From the NCBI GenBank assembly GCA_021815805.1, contig JAKAZQ010000007.1, positions 47,604 to 90,011 of the forward strand: 42,408 nt of DNA, given 5' to 3'. The notes below the pieces were generated by a model. It did not search any database, was not told the DNA's origin, and saw nothing but the letters and a program-made list of their open reading frames with translations. Made by a program: the position numbers and the translations under genes. Source of the DNA: Pseudomonadota bacterium. GTDB taxonomy: Bacteria > Pseudomonadota > Gammaproteobacteria > Burkholderiales > Burkholderiaceae_C. Shown here piece by piece: positions 8,789-42,408 of this stretch (the stretch's first letter is position 1; the number at the start of each line of letters is the position of its first letter).

Positions 8789-10874
8789 CGCTGCCCGGCG
8801 GCGGCGTCGGCCGCGCCCGACGCTCGAGCATCCATTGCGTGGCCTGCGGCGCCTCCAGCGGCGGCGCGTACAGATAGCCCTGGGCGAAGTCGCAGGCGAT
8901 ATCGCGCACCTTCTGCAACTCCTCCTCGGTCTCGATGCCCTCGGCGATCACCTGGATGTCCAGGCGGTGGGACATCGCCACGATGGCCTCGCAGATCGCC
9001 AGCTTGCGGGCATCGCCGGGCAGCTTGCGGATCAGCGACTGGTCGATCTTCAGGTAATCGACGTCGATGCGGCTGAGGCCCGCGAGGTTCGACGCTCCGG
9101 TGCCGAAGTCGTCGACGGCGACCTGGAAGCCCTGGCGGCGCAGCGCACGCAGGCGTTGCGCCACACGCGGCGAGTCGTCGAGGATCACGGTCTCGGTGAC
9201 CTCGATGACCATCTGGCGCGGATCGACGCCGATGCGTTCGAGCTGCGCCGCCCAGTCCCGGGTGTGGTCGACGTCGGCGCTGAGTTGCAGGGGCGAGACA
9301 TTGAACGACACCTGCGGCATGCCCGCGGCGTGCTCGCGCCAGCGCGCGGCCTGATCGGCCGCGCTGCGGAACACCCAGTCGCCGAGCTCGAGAATGAAGC
9401 CGGTTTCCTCCGCGAGGGAGATGAAGCGTGCCGGATGCACCGTGCCGAAGGCGGGGTGGCGCCAGCGCATCAGGGCCTCGAACTTGACCGGCGCGCCGTC
9501 GGCGATGCGCACCACAGGCTGGTACACCAGGTACAGCTCGCCGTGCTGCGCGGCGCGTCGAAGGTCGCCCGCCAGCAGCAGTCGGCCGCGCGCGCGCTGG
9601 TCGAGGATCGGGTCGTACAGCACCGTGCGATTGCGCCCGGCATGCTTGGCCTCGTACATCGCCAGGTCGGCATGCCGCAGCAGTTCGTCGGGATCGCGAC
9701 CGTCGCGCGGATAGACCGCCACGCCGACGCTGATCGAGACGTGGATCGGGTGCTCGCTGCGCGCGAACGGCTGCGCCAGCACCTCGTGCAGCTTGGTGCT
9801 GACGGCGCTCACGTCGGGCGGGTTGCCGGTGGCGGGAAGCAGCGCGGTGAATTCGTCGCCGCCCATGCGCGCCAGCACGTCGGAGCCGCGCAGGGCGCCG
9901 CGCATGCGCCGTGCCACGGCCACGAGCAGCGCATCGCCGGCGTCATGGCCGAGCGAGTCGTTCACCGTCTTGAAATGATCGATGTCGATGTACAGCACCA
10001 CGAAATTCCCGGACTCGCGCTCGGCGCGCGCGATCTCCAGCGCCAGTTGCTGCCGGAAGGCGTGGCGGTTGGGCAACTCGGTCAGCGCGTCCTGGTTGGC
10101 CTGGCGCCAGATGGTCTGCGCGGCGCGGATGCGTTCGCCGATGTCGCGCGCGATCTTGGAGGCCCCGACCACGCGGCCGGCGGCATCGCGCAGCGGCGAG
10201 ATGGTCACCGAAACATGCAGGCGATGACCGTCCTTGTGCAGGCGCTCGGTCTCGAAGTGATCGACGCGCTCGCCCGCCGCGATGCGCTGCAGGATCAGTT
10301 CCTCCTCCTGCGCGCGCTCCGGCGGAAACAGCTTGGTCACCGACTCGCCGATCATCTCCGCCGCGCTGTAGCCGAACAGGCGCTGCGCGCCGGGGTTCCA
10401 GCTGGTCACGATCCCGCTCAGGGTCTTGGTCACGATGGCGTCGTCGGACGACTCCACCAGCGACTCGTAGACATTCACCTGGCGCGCCCGCGGCGGCGCG
10501 GCACCGGCCGGCAGCGTGTGGTGCAGCGCATGCGCGGTGAGCAGCGTGGCTGCGTGGCCGAGCCGCGGGTCGTCGATCGGCGAGCGTGTCAGCAGCACCG
10601 ACAGCAGCGCGCCGTGGCGATTGCGCAACAGGCGCTGTGCGCTCAGCGTCTGGCTCTCGGCCTCGCCGGCGGGGAAGGTCTCGCCGCCCAGCGGGCGCAG
10701 CAACTGGTCCAGCGGCAGCCCCAGCGCCTCGGATGCCGGATAGCCGAACAGGCGTTCGGCCGCCGGATTCCAGCTGCTCACCATGCCCTGCGGCGTGATG
10801 GTGAGAATGGCGTCCTCGTGTCCGTTGACGATGGCTTCGAACAGGCACGAAGAGCTGGGTTGCGACGCGGCCAT
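8766..10874 (-). CDS. PAS-PAS-GGDEF-EAL c-di-GMP signalling protein
   Basis: A 702-aa cytoplasmic protein without membrane helices. Two PAS domains (about 10-125 and 133-250) precede a GGDEF domain (about 262-420) and an EAL domain (about 430-680). The cyclase motif is intact (GGDEF, 338-342) with an RGSD inhibitory site (329-332) at the right spacing. The EAL motif is intact (466-468) and the DDFGTG, DYLKID and E-G-I-E-T phosphodiesterase motifs are present, so both activities are possible. The start at 10874 (MAASQPSS) is the first ATG before the PAS homology; an alternative at 11000 would run into the dmeR operator. Its 3' end overlaps the ModE-like gene by 23 bp. Confidence 0.93.
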   Translation of the reverse strand: MAASQPSSSCLFEAIVNGHEDAILTITPQGMVSSWNPAAERLFGYPASEALGLPLDQLLRPLGGETFPAGEAESQTLSAQRLLRNRHGALLSVLLTRSPIDDPRLGHAATLLTAHALHHTLPAGAAPPRARQVNVYESLVESSDDAIVTKTLSGIVTSWNPGAQRLFGYSAAEMIGESVTKLFPPERAQEEELILQRIAAGERVDHFETERLHKDGHRLHVSVTISPLRDAAGRVVGASKIARDIGERIRAAQTIWRQANQDALTELPNRHAFRQQLALEIARAERESGNFVVLYIDIDHFKTVNDSLGHDAGDALLVAVARRMRGALRGSDVLARMGGDEFTALLPATGNPPDVSAVSTKLHEVLAQPFARSEHPIHVSISVGVAVYPRDGRDPDELLRHADLAMYEAKHAGRNRTVLYDPILDQRARGRLLLAGDLRRAAQHGELYLVYQPVVRIADGAPVKFEALMRWRHPAFGTVHPARFISLAEETGFILELGDWVFRSAADQAARWREHAAGMPQVSFNVSPLQLSADVDHTRDWAAQLERIGVDPRQMVIEVTETVILDDSPRVAQRLRALRRQGFQVAVDDFGTGASNLAGLSRIDVDYLKIDQSLIRKLPGDARKLAICEAIVAMSHRLDIQVIAEGIETEEELQKVRDIACDFAQGYLYAPPLEAPQATQWMLERRARPTPPPGSVSAPAGS

Positions 10875-10997
10875 GGCGCGGTTCTCGAAAAGGGGCGCGG
10901 ACGCCTTGGGCTTTGTTCCAGCATAGTCGCATACGGCAGATTCGGGATACAAAATCTTGCAAGCCGCGCCCGGTCGTCGAGCAAGGACTTCCGTATC

Positions 10998-11016
10998 CAT
11001 AGGGGGGTAGGCTATG
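10998..11016 (+). promoter_or_regulatory. Probable DmeR operator (G-tract, CsoR/RcnR family type)
   Basis: CATAGGGGGGTAGGCTATG: a run of six G inside a perfect 5-bp inverted repeat (CATAG/CTATG), ending 8 bp before the dmeR ATG. RcnR/FrmR/InrS-type repressors recognise G- or C-tracts flanked by AT-rich inverted repeats, so this fits an autorepression site. That the site is bound is inferred. GGAGG at 11020-11024 abuts the start codon. Confidence 0.7.
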
Positions 11017-11024
11017 ATCGGAGG

Positions 11025-11299
11025 ATGAGCCACACCATCCGCCAGAAGGCCAAGCTGCTGAACCGGGTGCACCGCATTCGCGGCCAGGTCGAGGCCATCG
11101 AGCGCGCCCTCGCCTCGGAAGCCGGCTGCGAGCAGGTGCTGCATGTCATCGCGGCCTGCCGCGGTGCGCTCAACGGCCTGCTCGGCGAAGTCGTCGAGCA
11201 GCATATCCAGAGCCACCTGGTGGAGCCTTTGCGCACGCAGCAGCCCGAGGCCGCCGACGCGGCCGAGCAACTCGTCGACGTGTTCCGGGGGTATTTCAA

Positions 11300-38138: not shown

Positions 38139-38332
38139 CGGGTGCTGCTCGACGCGATCCAATCTTGCTCGAAGCGCGCTTCGATATCTTCGAAACAGGT
38201 GAACCGGACGGCTTCAACCTGTCCGAACGCGTGGCGGTGGTGATAGCCGTGCGCATTGTCGTAGCCGATGACGCGCCCCCCTGCATCCAGAGTCCCTTCG
38301 CCACTCGAGGGCGCTGTCAGGGAACATTGGAC
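38135..38332 (-). pseudogene. Toxin C-terminal remnant (TumE/DUF6516-like, probable)
   Basis: An open reading of 65 codons before TGA at 38135-38137 with no start codon; a TAA stop lies just upstream at 38333-38335. The recognisable part reads DAGGRVIGYDNAHGYHHRH and then FGQVEAVRFTCFEDIEARF. The GYDNxHG..HHRH pattern followed by a short acidic helix is typical of small TumE/DUF6516-type toxins. The N-terminal half is missing, so it should be inactive. It directly abuts the vapBC promoter, which suggests one toxin-antitoxin locus replaced or truncated another. Confidence 0.45.
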
Positions 38333-38356
38333 TTACCATGTAAGACGATCTATGAT
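38327..38356 (+). promoter_or_regulatory. vapBC promoter with internal palindromic operator
   Basis: TTGGAC (38327-38332), 18 bp, TATGAT (38351-38356): a good sigma-70 pair placing the start about 25 nt before vapB. Between the boxes lies the perfect inverted repeat CTTAC-CAT-GTAAG (38332-38344), which suits autoregulation by the VapB/VapC complex. GGAG at 38378-38381 is 6 nt from the vapB ATG. Confidence 0.6.
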
Positions 38357-38387
38357 CCCGATCGTTCCAACGAGGCTGGAGACCCAC

Positions 38388-38651
38388 ATGTCGACGCTGC
38401 TCGTTTCTTCCAAGGGCCAGATCGTGTTGCCCGCTGCCCTGCGGCGTCGGCTCGGCATGGGCGCAGGTTCCCGCCTCGAAGTGATCGAGGAGGCTGACGG
38501 GCTGAAGCTGCGGGTCGTACGGTCTGTGCCAACGGCCGATCTGAGTGGTCTGGCGGGCATGGTCAAGGCTGAGGCGCGTGGTGTTCCACGTCACCTCGAG
38601 GACTTCGACCCCGCCTCGCCCTTGACCCGTTCGCGGCGGGGCAAGTCGTGA
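38388..38651 (+). CDS. vapB: VapB-type antitoxin, AbrB/MazE (SpoVT-AbrB) fold
   Basis: An 87-aa antitoxin. Residues 1-45 are a swapped-hairpin AbrB DNA-binding domain (VSSKGQIVLPAALRRRLGM, then GSRLEVIEEADGLKLR). The C-terminal tail (about 60-87, KAEARGVPRHLEDFDPAS) is the toxin-wrapping segment. It is preceded by a good ribosome-binding site and promoter. Its TGA overlaps the GTG start of the toxin gene. It should repress its own operon and neutralise the PIN RNase. Confidence 0.9.
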   Translation: MSTLLVSSKGQIVLPAALRRRLGMGAGSRLEVIEEADGLKLRVVRSVPTADLSGLAGMVKAEARGVPRHLEDFDPASPLTRSRRGKS

Positions 38652-39070
38652 AGGCCCTGGACACGAATGTCCTGGCGCGATTCTTCATCGACGACGAAGA
38701 CGACCCGCAGGCGGCAACGCAGCGGCCTGCTGCCGTCGCCGCCCTCGCGGAACGTTGCTTTGTCTCGGTCACCGTATTGCTGGAGCTGGAGTGGGTCATG
38801 CGGGGGTTCTACGAGCTGCCCAACGCGGACATTGCTCGTGTGTTGCGAGCGCTGGCTGGAATCGCGCATGTCACGCTCGAGGACCGAGATGCCGTGCTGG
38901 CAGCGGTCGAGGCTGTCGACCATGGCCTCGACTTCGCGGACGCGCTGCATCTGGCGCGCAGTTGTCGCGCCTCCGGATTTGCGACCTTCGATCGTCGACT
39001 GGCGAAGCGGGCCAAGGGGAAGCGGGCCAAGGGTCTCGCGCTGCTTCCCCCCGTGGAGTTGCTGGCCTGA
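38648..39070 (+). CDS. vapC: VapC-type PIN-domain ribonuclease toxin
   Basis: A 140-aa PIN-domain endoribonuclease. Acidic catalytic residues are in place: Asp5 (ALDTNVLARF), Glu46/Glu48 (LLELEWVMRG), Asp95/Asp98 (DFADALH) and Asp115 (TFDRRLA). It starts with GTG overlapping the vapB stop (GTGA, 38648-38651). Near the C terminus a perfect 14-bp tandem duplication (39005-39018 and 39020-39033) gives KRAKGKRAKG, an extra basic stretch that could touch RNA. The RNA target is not predictable. Confidence 0.9.
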   Translation: MKALDTNVLARFFIDDEDDPQAATQRPAAVAALAERCFVSVTVLLELEWVMRGFYELPNADIARVLRALAGIAHVTLEDRDAVLAAVEAVDHGLDFADALHLARSCRASGFATFDRRLAKRAKGKRAKGLALLPPVELLA

Positions 39071-39120
39071 GTGATTTCGGCCGGGCTCTCGAAGCGCAGG
39101 ACGCGCTCTGGTGAAACGCG

Positions 39121-39204
39121 CTCGCCGCGCGCGCAGTACAGGCGTTCGTGGAGCTCGGTGCAATCGCCCGGCACGCCCGAAATCCACCACGCCCTCGGTA
39201 CCCT
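39121..39204 (-). pseudogene. Fragment resembling an IS1380-family transposase
   Basis: A 28-codon stretch reads RVPRAWWISGVPGDCTELHE and then RLYCARGE, which matches the YCARGE(M)ENR region of IS1380-family transposases. Similarity stops abruptly after the Glu. No start or rest of the transposase is present. The nearby palindrome has termini of the same family type, which supports the identification. Confidence 0.45.
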
Positions 39205-39311
39205 TTGGTATCGGCCGCTTTCTCCTCTGTTCGTCACGTTTCGAGTCTCGCTACCTCTGAAACGCAAGACCGGGTCAAGCGCCCGACCTTTTGGCTCGTG
39301 AGATATCCAGG

Positions 39312-39479
39312 CTAGGAGCCTGGGCGGCAGAGGCAGCCGTCGCGAAATTCGTCAGGGGCGAGGACAGTTCGGGGGCGGTGAGGAGCCCATAGTGGCCGCT
39401 ATGGGCGACGAATCGGCGCCGGAATGGACCGCCCCTGGCGAATTGCAGCAGGCTCGCCCTCTGCCGCCCAGGTTCCTAG
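39312..39479. mobile_element. 168-bp near-perfect palindrome, MITE-like (IS1380-type ends)
   Basis: A single long imperfect palindrome centred at 39395.5. The outer arms pair 39313-39333 with 39458-39478 (20 of 21 bases), the middle arms pair 39346-39360 with 39430-39444 (14 of 15), and the inner arms pair GCCCATAG (39385-39392) with CTATGGGC (39399-39406). The right end reads CCTAGGAACCTGGGCGG inward; IS1380-family termini, such as those of ISEcp1, also begin CCTAG. There is no coding capacity. Its right end supplies the TAG stop codon of the methyltransferase gene. It could also act as a bidirectional terminator. Confidence 0.75.
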
Positions 39480-40327
39480 GGCTCTGGGGGGCTCCGAGAC
39501 AACCACCATCCGCGGCCGTGGCACCACGCGCTCGCGTCGGGGTTGTCACCGCGCACCAAAGAGCGAATCTCCCGCCAGGTCTCCACCCCCAGCGCATGGG
39601 CCAGAGAGCGCGAAGCGCACGTATCGCGAGTGCCGACGCAGGGCGTAAACCCGGCTCGGCCGAGTCCCCATGCCGAGAATCGGCCTGTGCCCGTGCGGGT
39701 GATCTGGAGCAGCAGCCCGTATCCGTCGTCGGGAGTCAGCGGGAGCACCAGGCGCCCTCCCGGCTTCAAGGCGTCCAGCCAGGGCGCCGGCAACTCCGCC
39801 ACGCCGGCGTTCACATAGATGACATCGGCCGGAGGCAGCGCCGTATCGTCGGATCCTTGCGTGACTGCGCATTGCGCCCGAAGCTCCACGTTCGGCCAGC
39901 GCTTCAGCGTGGCAGCGGCTTTTTTGGCGAGGGCCAACTCTCGTTCGAACGCCAACACGTTGCCCGTGGGTCCGACAAGGTGTGCCAGGATCGCACTGTA
40001 GTACCCGGCCCCTGCTCCGACGTGTATCACACTGTCTGCCTCACGCGGAGCAGCGGCGGCCAGGCATTGCGCGTGCAGCGACGGCTGCCCATTGTTGATG
40101 TGGTTCTGCGGGTCAAGCCCTACCAGAACGTCCTGGTACAGCCAGCGAGGGTCTGCGTCAGGAGTCGGCAGATATCCTTCTCCCGCACAGACCCACCATG
40201 GCCCGGCCTCCAGGAAGTCCTCTCGTGCAATTTGTGAAAAGGCCGCTACCAAGCGCGAGTCGCTCGATCCCGCACCACGCACGACCAATTGTGCGAAAAA
40301 GCGCCGATGTTCCTCAAGCAGCGCCAT
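39476..40327 (-). CDS. PCMT-type (protein-L-isoaspartate O-methyltransferase family) methyltransferase, likely RiPP tailoring
   Basis: A 283-aa SAM-dependent methyltransferase. The PCMT fold is marked by INNGQPSLHAQCL (78-90, equivalent to the isoaspartyl-binding GQT/SQP loop) and SAM motif I VIHVGAGAGYYSAILAHLVG (100-119). VLAFERE and ALKPGGRLVLPL follow. About 70 residues beyond the catalytic core form a C-terminal extension, as in the PCMT homologues of imiditide/lasso pathways. Its ATG overlaps the ATP-grasp gene by 14 bp, so the two are coupled. Expected role: methylate an Asp side chain of the modified precursor, leading to aspartimide. The stop codon lies in the palindromic element, so the native C terminus may have been altered. 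Confidence 0.82.
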   Translation of the reverse strand: MALLEEHRRFFAQLVVRGAGSSDSRLVAAFSQIAREDFLEAGPWWVCAGEGYLPTPDADPRWLYQDVLVGLDPQNHINNGQPSLHAQCLAAAAPREADSVIHVGAGAGYYSAILAHLVGPTGNVLAFERELALAKKAAATLKRWPNVELRAQCAVTQGSDDTALPPADVIYVNAGVAELPAPWLDALKPGGRLVLPLTPDDGYGLLLQITRTGTGRFSAWGLGRAGFTPCVGTRDTCASRSLAHALGVETWREIRSLVRGDNPDASAWCHGRGWWLSRSPPEP

Positions 40328-41441
40328 GGGTGGAATCTCCTGGAGACGCGCCCGGGCTCGAGCTCATCAGCCCGTATGTGTCAAGATAAGTGGTCGGCAC
40401 AGGAGGATCGGCTCTGAGTGTTTCGCAGAATTCTGATGAGTCGAGCACTTCCTCGAGATGAATGTCCGGAGGATTTTCCAGCCCAAGCAGTAGGGCGCAG
40501 AAGCTGCCGAGATAGGCATGCTCGGGGATGTGTCGCTCAAGCCATAGAAATTGCCCGGCCTGTTTGATTTCAAGAAAGATCATCTGTTCATCATCGGTCA
40601 GAAGGAAATCGATACAGCCGAAGATGAGGCCAAGACTTTTCATGAGTTGCGAGCATGCTGCCTGGATCGAATGAGGGAGCGCAAAATTTGTTACTGATTG
40701 AATTCTGCGGCGGTGAGCATCCACGACGTCGTTTTCTGCGAAATCAATCCGTGCGGCAAAAACGGTGTTTCCTAGGATCGTCACGCGAATTTCAGAGGCG
40801 GCTCTGATGAATTCCTGATAAATATATGGAATCCGAGATATGGCGCCTTCAATGCAAGGGATGGTAGACTCGAAACGTCCTGCATGGATGCTCCGAACGG
40901 ATCCATCATTTTCCCGGAGAAATTCCCCGATAAGTGGTTTGGCAACTACTTTCCACGATTGTTTCTGTGCGAATTCAAGTATCTTTTCCGGATCATTCGA
41001 AATCAGGGTCTCCGGGATTCCGAGGCTCACCCTCGACGCCATTTCGAGCTGTTTGGGCTTGAATTCGGCCCGTGCCGCGCATTCCTTGCGATTGACCCAA
41101 AGCGCTTTCTGCCCGAACAAATCGAATACGCGGTCCGCGAAAAACGTGCAATGTCGTCGAGCGAGCGTGCTTTGCGCGGGCTCCTGCATCGGCCGCAGAC
41201 GGTTCCAATCAATGCGCCGGAGCCAGATTGCCTCGAATTCATCCAGGGACTCCAGCCCTGGCGTATTGACGGCCAACCTCATGTTCGATTGCGAAATTTC
41301 TAAGGAAATGCGCTGTCGGGTGGGGAAGTTGCGCGGATTCCAACTCATCACGTCTGCGCCTGCGGCCCTACAGGCGGCTCGCACCGCCAAGGCGTGAACA
41401 TCTCCGCTATGGGTGCAGATGAGTATGCGGCGAGGCGTCAT
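40314..41441 (-). CDS. MvdC/MvdD-like ATP-grasp peptide ligase (graspetide maturase)
   Basis: A 375-aa ATP-grasp enzyme of the graspetide type, which joins Ser/Thr/Lys side chains of a precursor to Asp/Glu carboxylates using ATP. The pre-ATP-grasp domain is about 1-110 (ILICTHSGDVHA, AIWLRRIDW). ATP-binding residues follow in WKVVAKPLIG (about 163-172) and YIYQEFI (206-212, hinge), then EIRVTILG. The metal site has Asp278 (CIDFLLTDDEQ) and Glu291, but the usual LE-x-N reads LEIKQAGQFLWLE with Lys293 in place of Asn. DNA here is less GC-rich (30 of 60 bases at 40741-40800), which suggests transfer. 61 bp downstream of the candidate precursor; no clear ribosome-binding site. Confidence 0.85.
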   Translation of the reverse strand: MTPRRILICTHSGDVHALAVRAACRAAGADVMSWNPRNFPTRQRISLEISQSNMRLAVNTPGLESLDEFEAIWLRRIDWNRLRPMQEPAQSTLARRHCTFFADRVFDLFGQKALWVNRKECAARAEFKPKQLEMASRVSLGIPETLISNDPEKILEFAQKQSWKVVAKPLIGEFLRENDGSVRSIHAGRFESTIPCIEGAISRIPYIYQEFIRAASEIRVTILGNTVFAARIDFAENDVVDAHRRRIQSVTNFALPHSIQAACSQLMKSLGLIFGCIDFLLTDDEQMIFLEIKQAGQFLWLERHIPEHAYLGSFCALLLGLENPPDIHLEEVLDSSEFCETLRADPPVPTTYLDTYGLMSSSPGASPGDSTHGAA

Positions 41442-41502
41442 CGGTTTGGATTATCTGTTGAAGCGTGCTGCCTTCCGCCTTGCGGCATTTTGACGGATTT
41501 AT

Positions 41503-41802
41503 TCAATAGTCCGGCGGGAATGGGTGCAGCGAGCCTAGCTGACTCAAAACCCATTCATTGTCGTTTTCTCCGAGCAGCTCCAGAGTACCCGCGGCGATGT
41601 GTTGCATGAAATGGTCGGCTATCGTGAAACTCGCTCCTGGAGTCGTGGAAGGGCGCTGAAATGGGCAATCTTCGATCATTGGGGTGGAAATCCCTGTGGG
41701 TGACTTGGCGAATTGCTCCGGGCTTTGGTATAACCATGGATCTGGAAGGGATGTCAGGTTTCCAAACGAAATACCATCATATGCCATGGATGGCGGATGC
41801 AT
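41503..41802 (-). CDS. Candidate RiPP precursor peptide, 99 aa
   Basis: A small gene directly upstream of and co-directional with the ATP-grasp gene. The N-terminal half (about 1-50, from MHPPSMAYDGISFGN) would be the leader; an alternative ATG gives a start at residue 6. The C-terminal half carries Thr/Ser donors (STTPGASFTIADH, 52-64) and acidic acceptors (AGTLELLGENDNEWV, 71-85), ending SLHPFPPDY. Ester or amide links between Thr/Ser/Lys and Glu/Asp, or aspartimide at an Asp such as D63 or D81, are chemically possible. No known core motif, such as the microviridin TxKxPSD, is present and I know no homologue. No good ribosome-binding site is visible. The gene call rests on position, length, base composition and residue content. 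Confidence 0.55.
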   Translation of the reverse strand: MHPPSMAYDGISFGNLTSLPDPWLYQSPEQFAKSPTGISTPMIEDCPFQRPSTTPGASFTIADHFMQHIAAGTLELLGENDNEWVLSQLGSLHPFPPDY

Positions 41803-41908
41803 TTATGGCACGAGACGAGTGTGGTATTCGAATGCCGCCATCGCCAAGTTGCAGGCGGCCGCTCGGCGGCTCGGCCTCTCGGCAGCGAGCAACGGGCCTT
41901 TCATGGGC

Positions 41909-41962
41909 AAGGCGTCGGCGCCCGGAGTGCCGAGAAACCTGGAGGATTTGGATGCGGCGCCG
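41909..41962 (+). pseudogene. VapB-like C-terminal tail fragment
   Basis: 18 codons read KASAPGVPRNLEDLDAAP, 12 of 18 identical to the tail of the intact VapB at 38388-38651 (KAEARGVPRHLEDFDPAS). The frame runs directly into transposase sequence. No AbrB domain precedes it. This looks like the debris of a second, related antitoxin gene cut by the insertion sequence. Confidence 0.5.
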
Positions 41963-42210
41963 GACATGTTCCGGCCCAGGCTCGATGAGCAGATCAACAT
42001 GAAGCACCCGCTGGCGCGTCTGGCCGGGTTGCTAGATTGGGACGAGATCCACCGCAGCTTCGCCGTGCACTTCAGCTCGGGGGTGGTGGCCCGGCGCTCT
42101 CCCCCCGCCTGGTTGCCGGTTTGCCGTACCTGCAGCACGCCTTCGATGCTTCGTACGAGGCCGTTGTGGGCACCTGGGTGGAGAACCCGTACTGGCAGTT
42201 CTTCACTGGA
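41963..42210 (+). pseudogene. IS5-family transposase remnant, frameshifted and truncated
   Basis: The reading DMFRPRLDEQINMKHPLARL and then AGLLDWDEIHRSFAVHFSSG is the N terminus of an IS5-family transposase. A frameshift at about 42083-42096 moves similarity to the next frame (PALSPRLVAGLPYLQHAFDA, then VVGTWVENPYWQFFTG). Similarity ends at about 42210, before the DDE catalytic region. No terminal inverted repeat was identified at either side. It is an inactive fragment. Confidence 0.75.
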
Positions 42211-42408
42211 CCCACCACGCGCTACCGCTCCGAAGGTCAACAAAGCATTGCTTCGCTGGACACGCCTCGCGGCCTGTGGGCACTAGATGGGCGCAGAATG
42301 GGCACCGTGCCCAAGCAGCACAGAGGACAATAAAGCCAAGGGATCCCGTCCGATGCGTGGCGCGTGCCGATTTGGGCGTGCTGTTGTTCGCCCGAAGGTC
42401 GGGTTCGT
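42211..42408. other. Unassigned sequence after the IS5 remnant
   Basis: 198 bp to the window edge. Short open frames continue on both strands but none shows family similarity. It may be further rearranged mobile-element DNA. Confidence 0.4.

Follow-up and report, generated by a model that had tools for sequence, protein, structure and literature searches.

The closest described systems to the locus treated here are the group 13 graspetides or graspimiditides, such as fuscimiditide and amycolimiditide, whose tgmA-tgmB-tgmC genes form a tight operon encoding, in the same order as here, a small frame, an ATP-grasp enzyme and an enzyme resembling protein isoaspartyl methyltransferase (PIMT; cf. 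L061 and L062). Group 13 comprises 1326 clusters, 99% of them in Actinomycetota with a few others in Chloroflexi and Acidobacteria (PMC13001092), and is nearly always accompanied by a PIMT (PMC13097080). Imiditides and pamtides, which are also ribosomally synthesized and post-translationally modified peptides (RiPPs), likewise have a PIMT-type enzyme beside a small frame (PMC13001092, PMC10787088). We describe a locus near one end of a 42,408-nucleotide stretch (the window) of contig JAKAZQ010000007.1, which belongs to a member of the Burkholderiaceae_C in the Pseudomonadota (GCA_021815805.1). An earlier note had proposed that three packed minus-strand frames at this place form a graspetide or imiditide cassette. 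On balance we read the locus as a proteobacterial, horizontally moving, two-enzyme cassette of graspetide type with a separately recruited PIMT and a putative substrate. Its parts are:

41802-41503, minus strand: 99-amino acid open frame, proposed as the precursor, a status that is unsupported
41441-40314, minus strand: ATP-grasp ligase of the graspetide-synthetase type, 375 amino acids, from profile and solved-chain matches
40563..40565, minus strand: codon of Lys293, within the F-L-E-I-K motif of the ATP-grasp, from the alignment
40327-39476, minus strand: methyltransferase of the PCMT/PIMT fold, 283 amino acids, from profile matches
39483-41939, minus strand: block common to the window and the same-genus metagenome-assembled genome G027 (L006), DNA match 85.6% over 2458 columns

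The coordinates and lengths of the three frames agree with the earlier note, as do the 61-bp gap between the 99-amino acid frame and the ATP-grasp gene and the 14-bp overlap of the two enzyme genes. Its description of the second gene as MvdC/MvdD-like is borne out as well. The product passes PF21068 (MvdD pre-ATP-grasp; 35.1 bits, cut-off 27) and is matched by six sequences of solved graspetide synthetases at E values from 1.5e-27 (MdnC-type chain) to 6e-6, while its scores against TIGR04187 (tgmB-type; 171.6 bits, cut-off 350), MvdC (139.1 bits) and MvdD (135.4 bits) each lie under the curated cut-off. Judged by its sequence it is a real relative of the graspetide synthetases; the C-terminal tail past approximately residue 342 is unconserved. 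The third gene had been assigned to the PCMT family, correctly: the product matches PF01135 (PCMT) over residues 79-231 of 283 (79.6 bits, cut-off 20.3) and isoaspartyl methyltransferases from E 1.2e-12, and these matches identify it as a real homolog of the PCMT/PIMT fold. Against TIGR04188 it scores 55.5 bits, under the cut-off of 380. The sole PADLOC match at the locus, in which the methyltransferase hits mad2 with 41 bits across residues 80-198, is read as fold similarity. Structure prediction of this protein, made from two sequences, gave a mean predicted local distance difference test score (pLDDT) of 44.

In the ATP-grasp tree the window protein groups with those of G027 and a further genome of the genus, G017, at 100/100, and this trio is nested in a proteobacterial clade of 12 rows (99/99), apart from the three sampled actinobacterial tgmB rows, which form a group of their own. 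The methyltransferase tree contains a family of 10 rows at 100/100 (the window, four same-genus proteins, and proteins of Agrobacterium, Caballeronia, Rhizobium, Microvirga and Comamonas), which stands apart from two tgmC rows and five PCMT-like proteins of the genus. The two tgmC proteins, of 372 and 400 amino acids, are longer than the window enzyme and align with it weakly (E 2e-8 and 4e-6). An actinobacterial donor of the cassette was rejected on both trees. Outside the genus, 29 loci with a methyltransferase relative were examined (24 from phylum genomes and five from plasmids, mostly with about 1.5 kb or 5 kb on each side), and an adjacent ATP-grasp gene was found at none of them; the family there, in Rhizobiaceae, Caballeronia and Comamonas, is a stand-alone one with a similar protein. 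Since the two enzymes fall in separate clades from their group 13 counterparts and the ATP-grasp neighbor is absent from all 29 loci, the pairing looks independently assembled. The statement that ATP-grasp and PCMT are paired mainly in actinobacteria agrees with the literature (PMC13001092), whereas the host of the window is a proteobacterium. Searches for publications on graspetides in Betaproteobacteria, or on RiPPs combining ATP-grasp, O-methyltransferase and isoaspartate in Burkholderia, returned none in the library searched, which leaves their absence from print unestablished.

The pair is retained in three genomes of the genus (G000, G027 and G017). Relatives of the ATP-grasp occur in two of the 27 other genus genomes, G027 (80% identity) and G017 (43%), the methyltransferase of the latter being 55% identical to that of the window. 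Some graspetide-type ATP-grasp is present at E ≤1e-10 in 15 of 299 family genomes, none above 34% identity besides the window genome, and among 399 genomes of the order only the ATP-grasp of the window genome passes 1e-35. Strong methyltransferase matches (E <1e-90) were found in 5 of 28 genus genomes (G000, G027, G018, G017 and G016) and some match at 1e-10 in 17 of them; a threshold of 1e-25 is passed in one of 369 class genomes, the window's own, and in 21 of 398 phylum genomes. Plasmid records matching the methyltransferase at E 1e-5 number 324, mostly from Rhizobium (194) and Sinorhizobium (69), the best 20 having 41-45% identity across 95-100% of the protein, and an NNG[QES]PxLHA stretch is common to five aligned stand-alone relatives. 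Viral contigs searched with P0003, P0001 and P0002 contained no relative.

Some of the methyltransferase relatives have neighbors worth recording. In G018 (L048:1356-3995) the gene adjoins an ABC exporter. The same locus in G027 (L050:2565-3598) is decayed, with a shortened exporter frame and an internal deletion in the methyltransferase. G016 has an intact gene (L049:7524-8354) and, 2.4 kb off, a fragmentary second copy (10787-11105). On an Agrobacterium tumefaciens plasmid (L031:1052-5852) the relative and a VgrG gene lie close together, separated by three hypothetical genes.

When the window is compared with the 19.2-kb contig of G027, the block 39483-41939 is shared and the remaining matches are short and scattered (27-69 bases). 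As only this block is common to both contigs, the cassette occupies different sites in the two genomes and has moved as a unit; the gene pair is apparently compact and horizontally mobile. The G+C content is 0.53-0.54 in the 99-amino acid frame and the ATP-grasp gene, 0.66 in the methyltransferase gene and 0.707 in the whole window. Purifying selection has acted on both enzymes since the lineages of the window and G027 parted. Substitutions by codon position are 40/31/71 in the ATP-grasp gene (p 9e-5 for uniform; third-position share 50%) and 16/20/40 in the methyltransferase gene (p 0.0015; 53%), with dN/dS of about 0.31 and 0.33, respectively. We regard the pair of ATP-grasp and PCMT genes as authentic, inherited together and lying outside group 13; most likely it represents a RiPP cassette that was assembled separately. 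The imiditide label had to be dropped: the window has a co-transferred ATP-grasp, and according to PMC13001092 the imiditide class has none, nor do type I pamtides. The absence of a protease or transporter, also claimed earlier, stands for the 2.5-kb block shared with G027, inside which there is no space for a protease or exporter gene.

Small peptides upstream of homologous ATP-grasp genes were indeed found, of a kind other than the 99-amino acid frame. Seven of the nine other loci of the 12-row clade, the sister loci (L010, L011, L012, L023, L004, L065 with three frames, and L066), carry an upstream small frame with an R-x-[LM]-A-x-x-L-A-x-x-L...E...[VI]AGG leader and a short, variable core; single leader positions vary in L012 and in two of the Legionella frames, and no such leader was found upstream at the clade loci L021 and L024. 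The hosts are genomes of the same family and the same order, Bradyrhizobium sp. CB82 and Legionella adelaidensis. These frames are likely graspetide precursors. The nearest ends 57-100 bp before the start of ATP-grasp homology (in Legionella two more frames lie at 320 and 509), and all nine precursor frames have a Shine-Dalgarno sequence of at least 4 nt, with the start chosen by the analyst. No relative of the window methyltransferase was found at the nine sister loci within about 1.5-3 kb on each side. Thus, within one ATP-grasp clade, the sister loci have the leader peptide (seven of nine) without the methyltransferase and the window has the reverse. In Legionella adelaidensis the three leader frames stand in a row, and genes for HlyD and an ABC transporter with a peptidase domain lie downstream.

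A profile of the leader gives its own members 41-47 bits and the frames of the window, G027 and G017 no more than 0.8 bits; it recovers the known frames in four control genomes, training members included. In the genus outside the cassette genomes it gave a single notable match, a frame in G019 (L073:1237-1569, minus strand) at E 8e-4, which has a double-glycine-type leader and no ATP-grasp within 1.9 kb and was not counted as a graspetide precursor. With this leader (ELTQQELTEVAGG) and an Ala/Gly-rich remainder, it appears by eye to be an unrelated bacteriocin-type peptide.

The 99-amino acid frame, which the earlier note took for the precursor, is known in two copies only, those of the window and of G027 (L006), and no other long minus-strand frame in the shared upstream stretch of about 0.5 kb is open in both. 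It is possible, if doubtful, that this frame is a true, fast-evolving precursor whose recognition sequence is new and may be the C-terminal [SN]QLGSL[HR]PFPPDY. Its position 61 bp upstream of the ATP-grasp gene fits the spacing at the sister loci, and it remains open in G027 with no indel across 300 aligned bases and 58 of 99 residues identical. As the first start codon is not ATG in G027, the start common to both copies is the second ATG (41787, MAYDG...), giving a 94-amino acid version to which the same reading could apply. The dN/dS of 0.71 is below 1, but exceeds the values of both enzymes, and the 69 substitutions are spread evenly over the codon positions (23/26/20; p 0.68 for uniform), the third-position share of 29% being below that of the ATP-grasp gene (p 0.0003). 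The BLOSUM score of 277 equals the permuted null (276.9), and the frame stays open in 25% of permutations. The C-terminal 16 codons are the best-conserved part, at P 0.055 for that place taken alone and P 0.71 for the best window. Neither copy has a Shine-Dalgarno sequence, in contrast to the sister frames, and the [VI]AGG leader is lacking. No relative of the frame was found at the G017 locus or in 26 of the 28 genus genomes, and its protein has no match in Pfam or NCBIfam up to E 1. In the control, the permutation test detected constraint in five of six enzyme blocks of equal size; it missed block 0 of the ATP-grasp (P 0.23) and hence can overlook real genes. Selection on the frame is not detectable, and the proposal that it is the precursor is probably wrong, or else the peptide evolves extremely fast. 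The earlier note had held that flanking genes conserved around an unconserved frame would count against its proposal. That pattern is found in part: the enzymes are conserved and the 99-amino acid protein is not conserved beyond chance, yet the frame itself is still open in G027.

Other frames fared no better as precursors. The 60-amino acid frame 41737-41555 has two stops in L006; in both copies a plus-strand frame runs open from 41684, conserved no better than chance (P 0.45); and the 12-codon frame 41841-41803 (P 0.02) was lost after accounting for the number of tests. The same correction removed the best of 15 minus-strand sliding windows, frame 2 at 41860-41741 (P 0.015; next overlapping window P 0.06), which has one stop in the window copy and zero in L006. 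A 56-amino acid frame upstream of the G017 ATP-grasp gene was likewise rejected, as the 27 remaining genomes of the genus contain no relative of it.

Several observations weigh against a functional, independently assembled cassette. The tree-building tool gave long-branch warnings for some rows of the ATP-grasp tree, including L021 and L024 of the 12-row clade, and flagged long branches in the methyltransferase tree; the tgmB (three) and tgmC (two) rows were few and every one came from plasmid records. Two of the five same-genus genomes with the methyltransferase, G018 and G016, have no ATP-grasp match, so the methyltransferase can exist without an ATP-grasp. The methyltransferase tree places G018 between the window pair and G017/G016, which leaves both an ancestral pair with two ATP-grasp losses and repeated gain possible. 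The activity could be ordinary isoaspartate repair, and an enzyme of protein repair that merely adjoins the ATP-grasp gene would fit the PCMT fold, the relatives in Rhizobiaceae and others that lack ATP-grasp neighbors, and the absence from this 283-amino acid protein of the C-terminal extension of more than 100 amino acids seen in most RiPP-clade PIMTs (80% of the clade; PMC10787088). That published set of PAMTs was filtered to at least 300 amino acids and drawn from the clade with the C-terminal domain. We think this explanation unlikely, as it has to accommodate the 14-bp overlap and joint transfer with the ATP-grasp gene, the retention of the pair in G017 at its level of divergence, and a score against TIGR00080 (canonical protein-repair Pcm) of 63.8 bits, far under the cut-off of 159.05.

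The ATP-grasp of the window itself raises a further objection. It has Lys293 (Glu-Ile-Lys) where all 38 other rows of the alignment, L006 included, and five aligned solved chains carry Asn; the motif is FLEVN[QE]xGQFL in seven of the nine other clade rows and FLEINQAGQFL in L006. We take the Asn of Glu-x-Asn to be a metal-site residue. With Lys at this usually invariant position the window copy may be catalytically impaired, although Lys293 might instead reflect an error in the metagenome-derived assembly. A whole-genome search with the leader profile gave best E values at chance level (0.14 in G000, 0.50 in G027 and 0.62 in G017). Because no leader of the sister type was found, the precursor of the window lineage has changed past recognition, is encoded elsewhere or is gone. 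A decaying relic, in which transfer was followed by loss of the precursor and the window copy is undergoing inactivation, is a tentative alternative that would account for Lys293, for the lack of a recognizable precursor in cis or of a sister-type one genome-wide, for the mobile-element and antitoxin remnants upstream and for the second, fragmentary copies of the methyltransferase gene in G027 and G016. Against it stand the Asn retained in the G027 enzyme and the purifying selection on both genes; with dN/dS near 0.3, any loss must be recent or confined to the window genome.

If the two-enzyme cassette is functional, the ATP-grasp would, by analogy with its family, use ATP to activate carboxylates in the side chains of a ribosomal peptide and close ester or amide rings. 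The PCMT-fold enzyme, to judge from its fold and pairing, might then use S-adenosylmethionine to methylate an Asp or isoAsp in the ring-closed peptide, leading to aspartimide or isoaspartate. The joining of the two genes would have taken place within this genus, separately from actinobacterial group 13, with the stand-alone PCMT-like family as the presumed source of the recruited enzyme. A same-strand substrate encoded in cis would have to fall in the shared upstream stretch of about 0.5 kb, or else be encoded elsewhere or lost. More speculatively, and with little confidence, the locus could represent a separate, non-actinobacterial origin of aspartimide-type graspetides, in which a proteobacterial synthetase was combined with a stand-alone PCMT-like enzyme, the [VI]AGG leader was dropped and a fast-changing peptide acquired a new recognition sequence. 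A functional pairing would mean that ring closure by an ATP-grasp and modification of Asp by a PIMT-type enzyme came together on at least two occasions, from different stocks of enzymes, and this would suggest that combining them is useful in itself. The methyltransferase would then also provide a second type of scaffold, shorter and lacking the C-terminal domain that has been proposed to be important for RiPP PIMTs. The sister loci with their clear leaders offer an immediate entry to proteobacterial graspetides.

As to expression signals, the methyltransferase gene has a Shine-Dalgarno sequence (AGGAG) with a 9-nt spacer to its ATG, and none precedes the ATP-grasp start in the window. An Rfam scan of 39000-42408 gave zero matches up to E 1, no sigma-70-like site was found at the locus (0.9 expected by chance), and terminator-like sites numbered 2 against 2.9 expected. 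Two remnants, both named by eye, lie upstream of the cassette:

41902..41958, plus strand: AbrB/VapB-like antitoxin C-terminus remnant
41990..42333, plus strand: IS5-like transposase remnant, frameshifted, at the contig end

A 200-amino acid frame crossing part of the IS5-like remnant had no Pfam match. On the other side of the cassette, at 38268-39070 of the plus strand, are adjacent frames that by eye resemble a VapB antitoxin and a VapC toxin, so that VapB-like sequences flank it on both sides.

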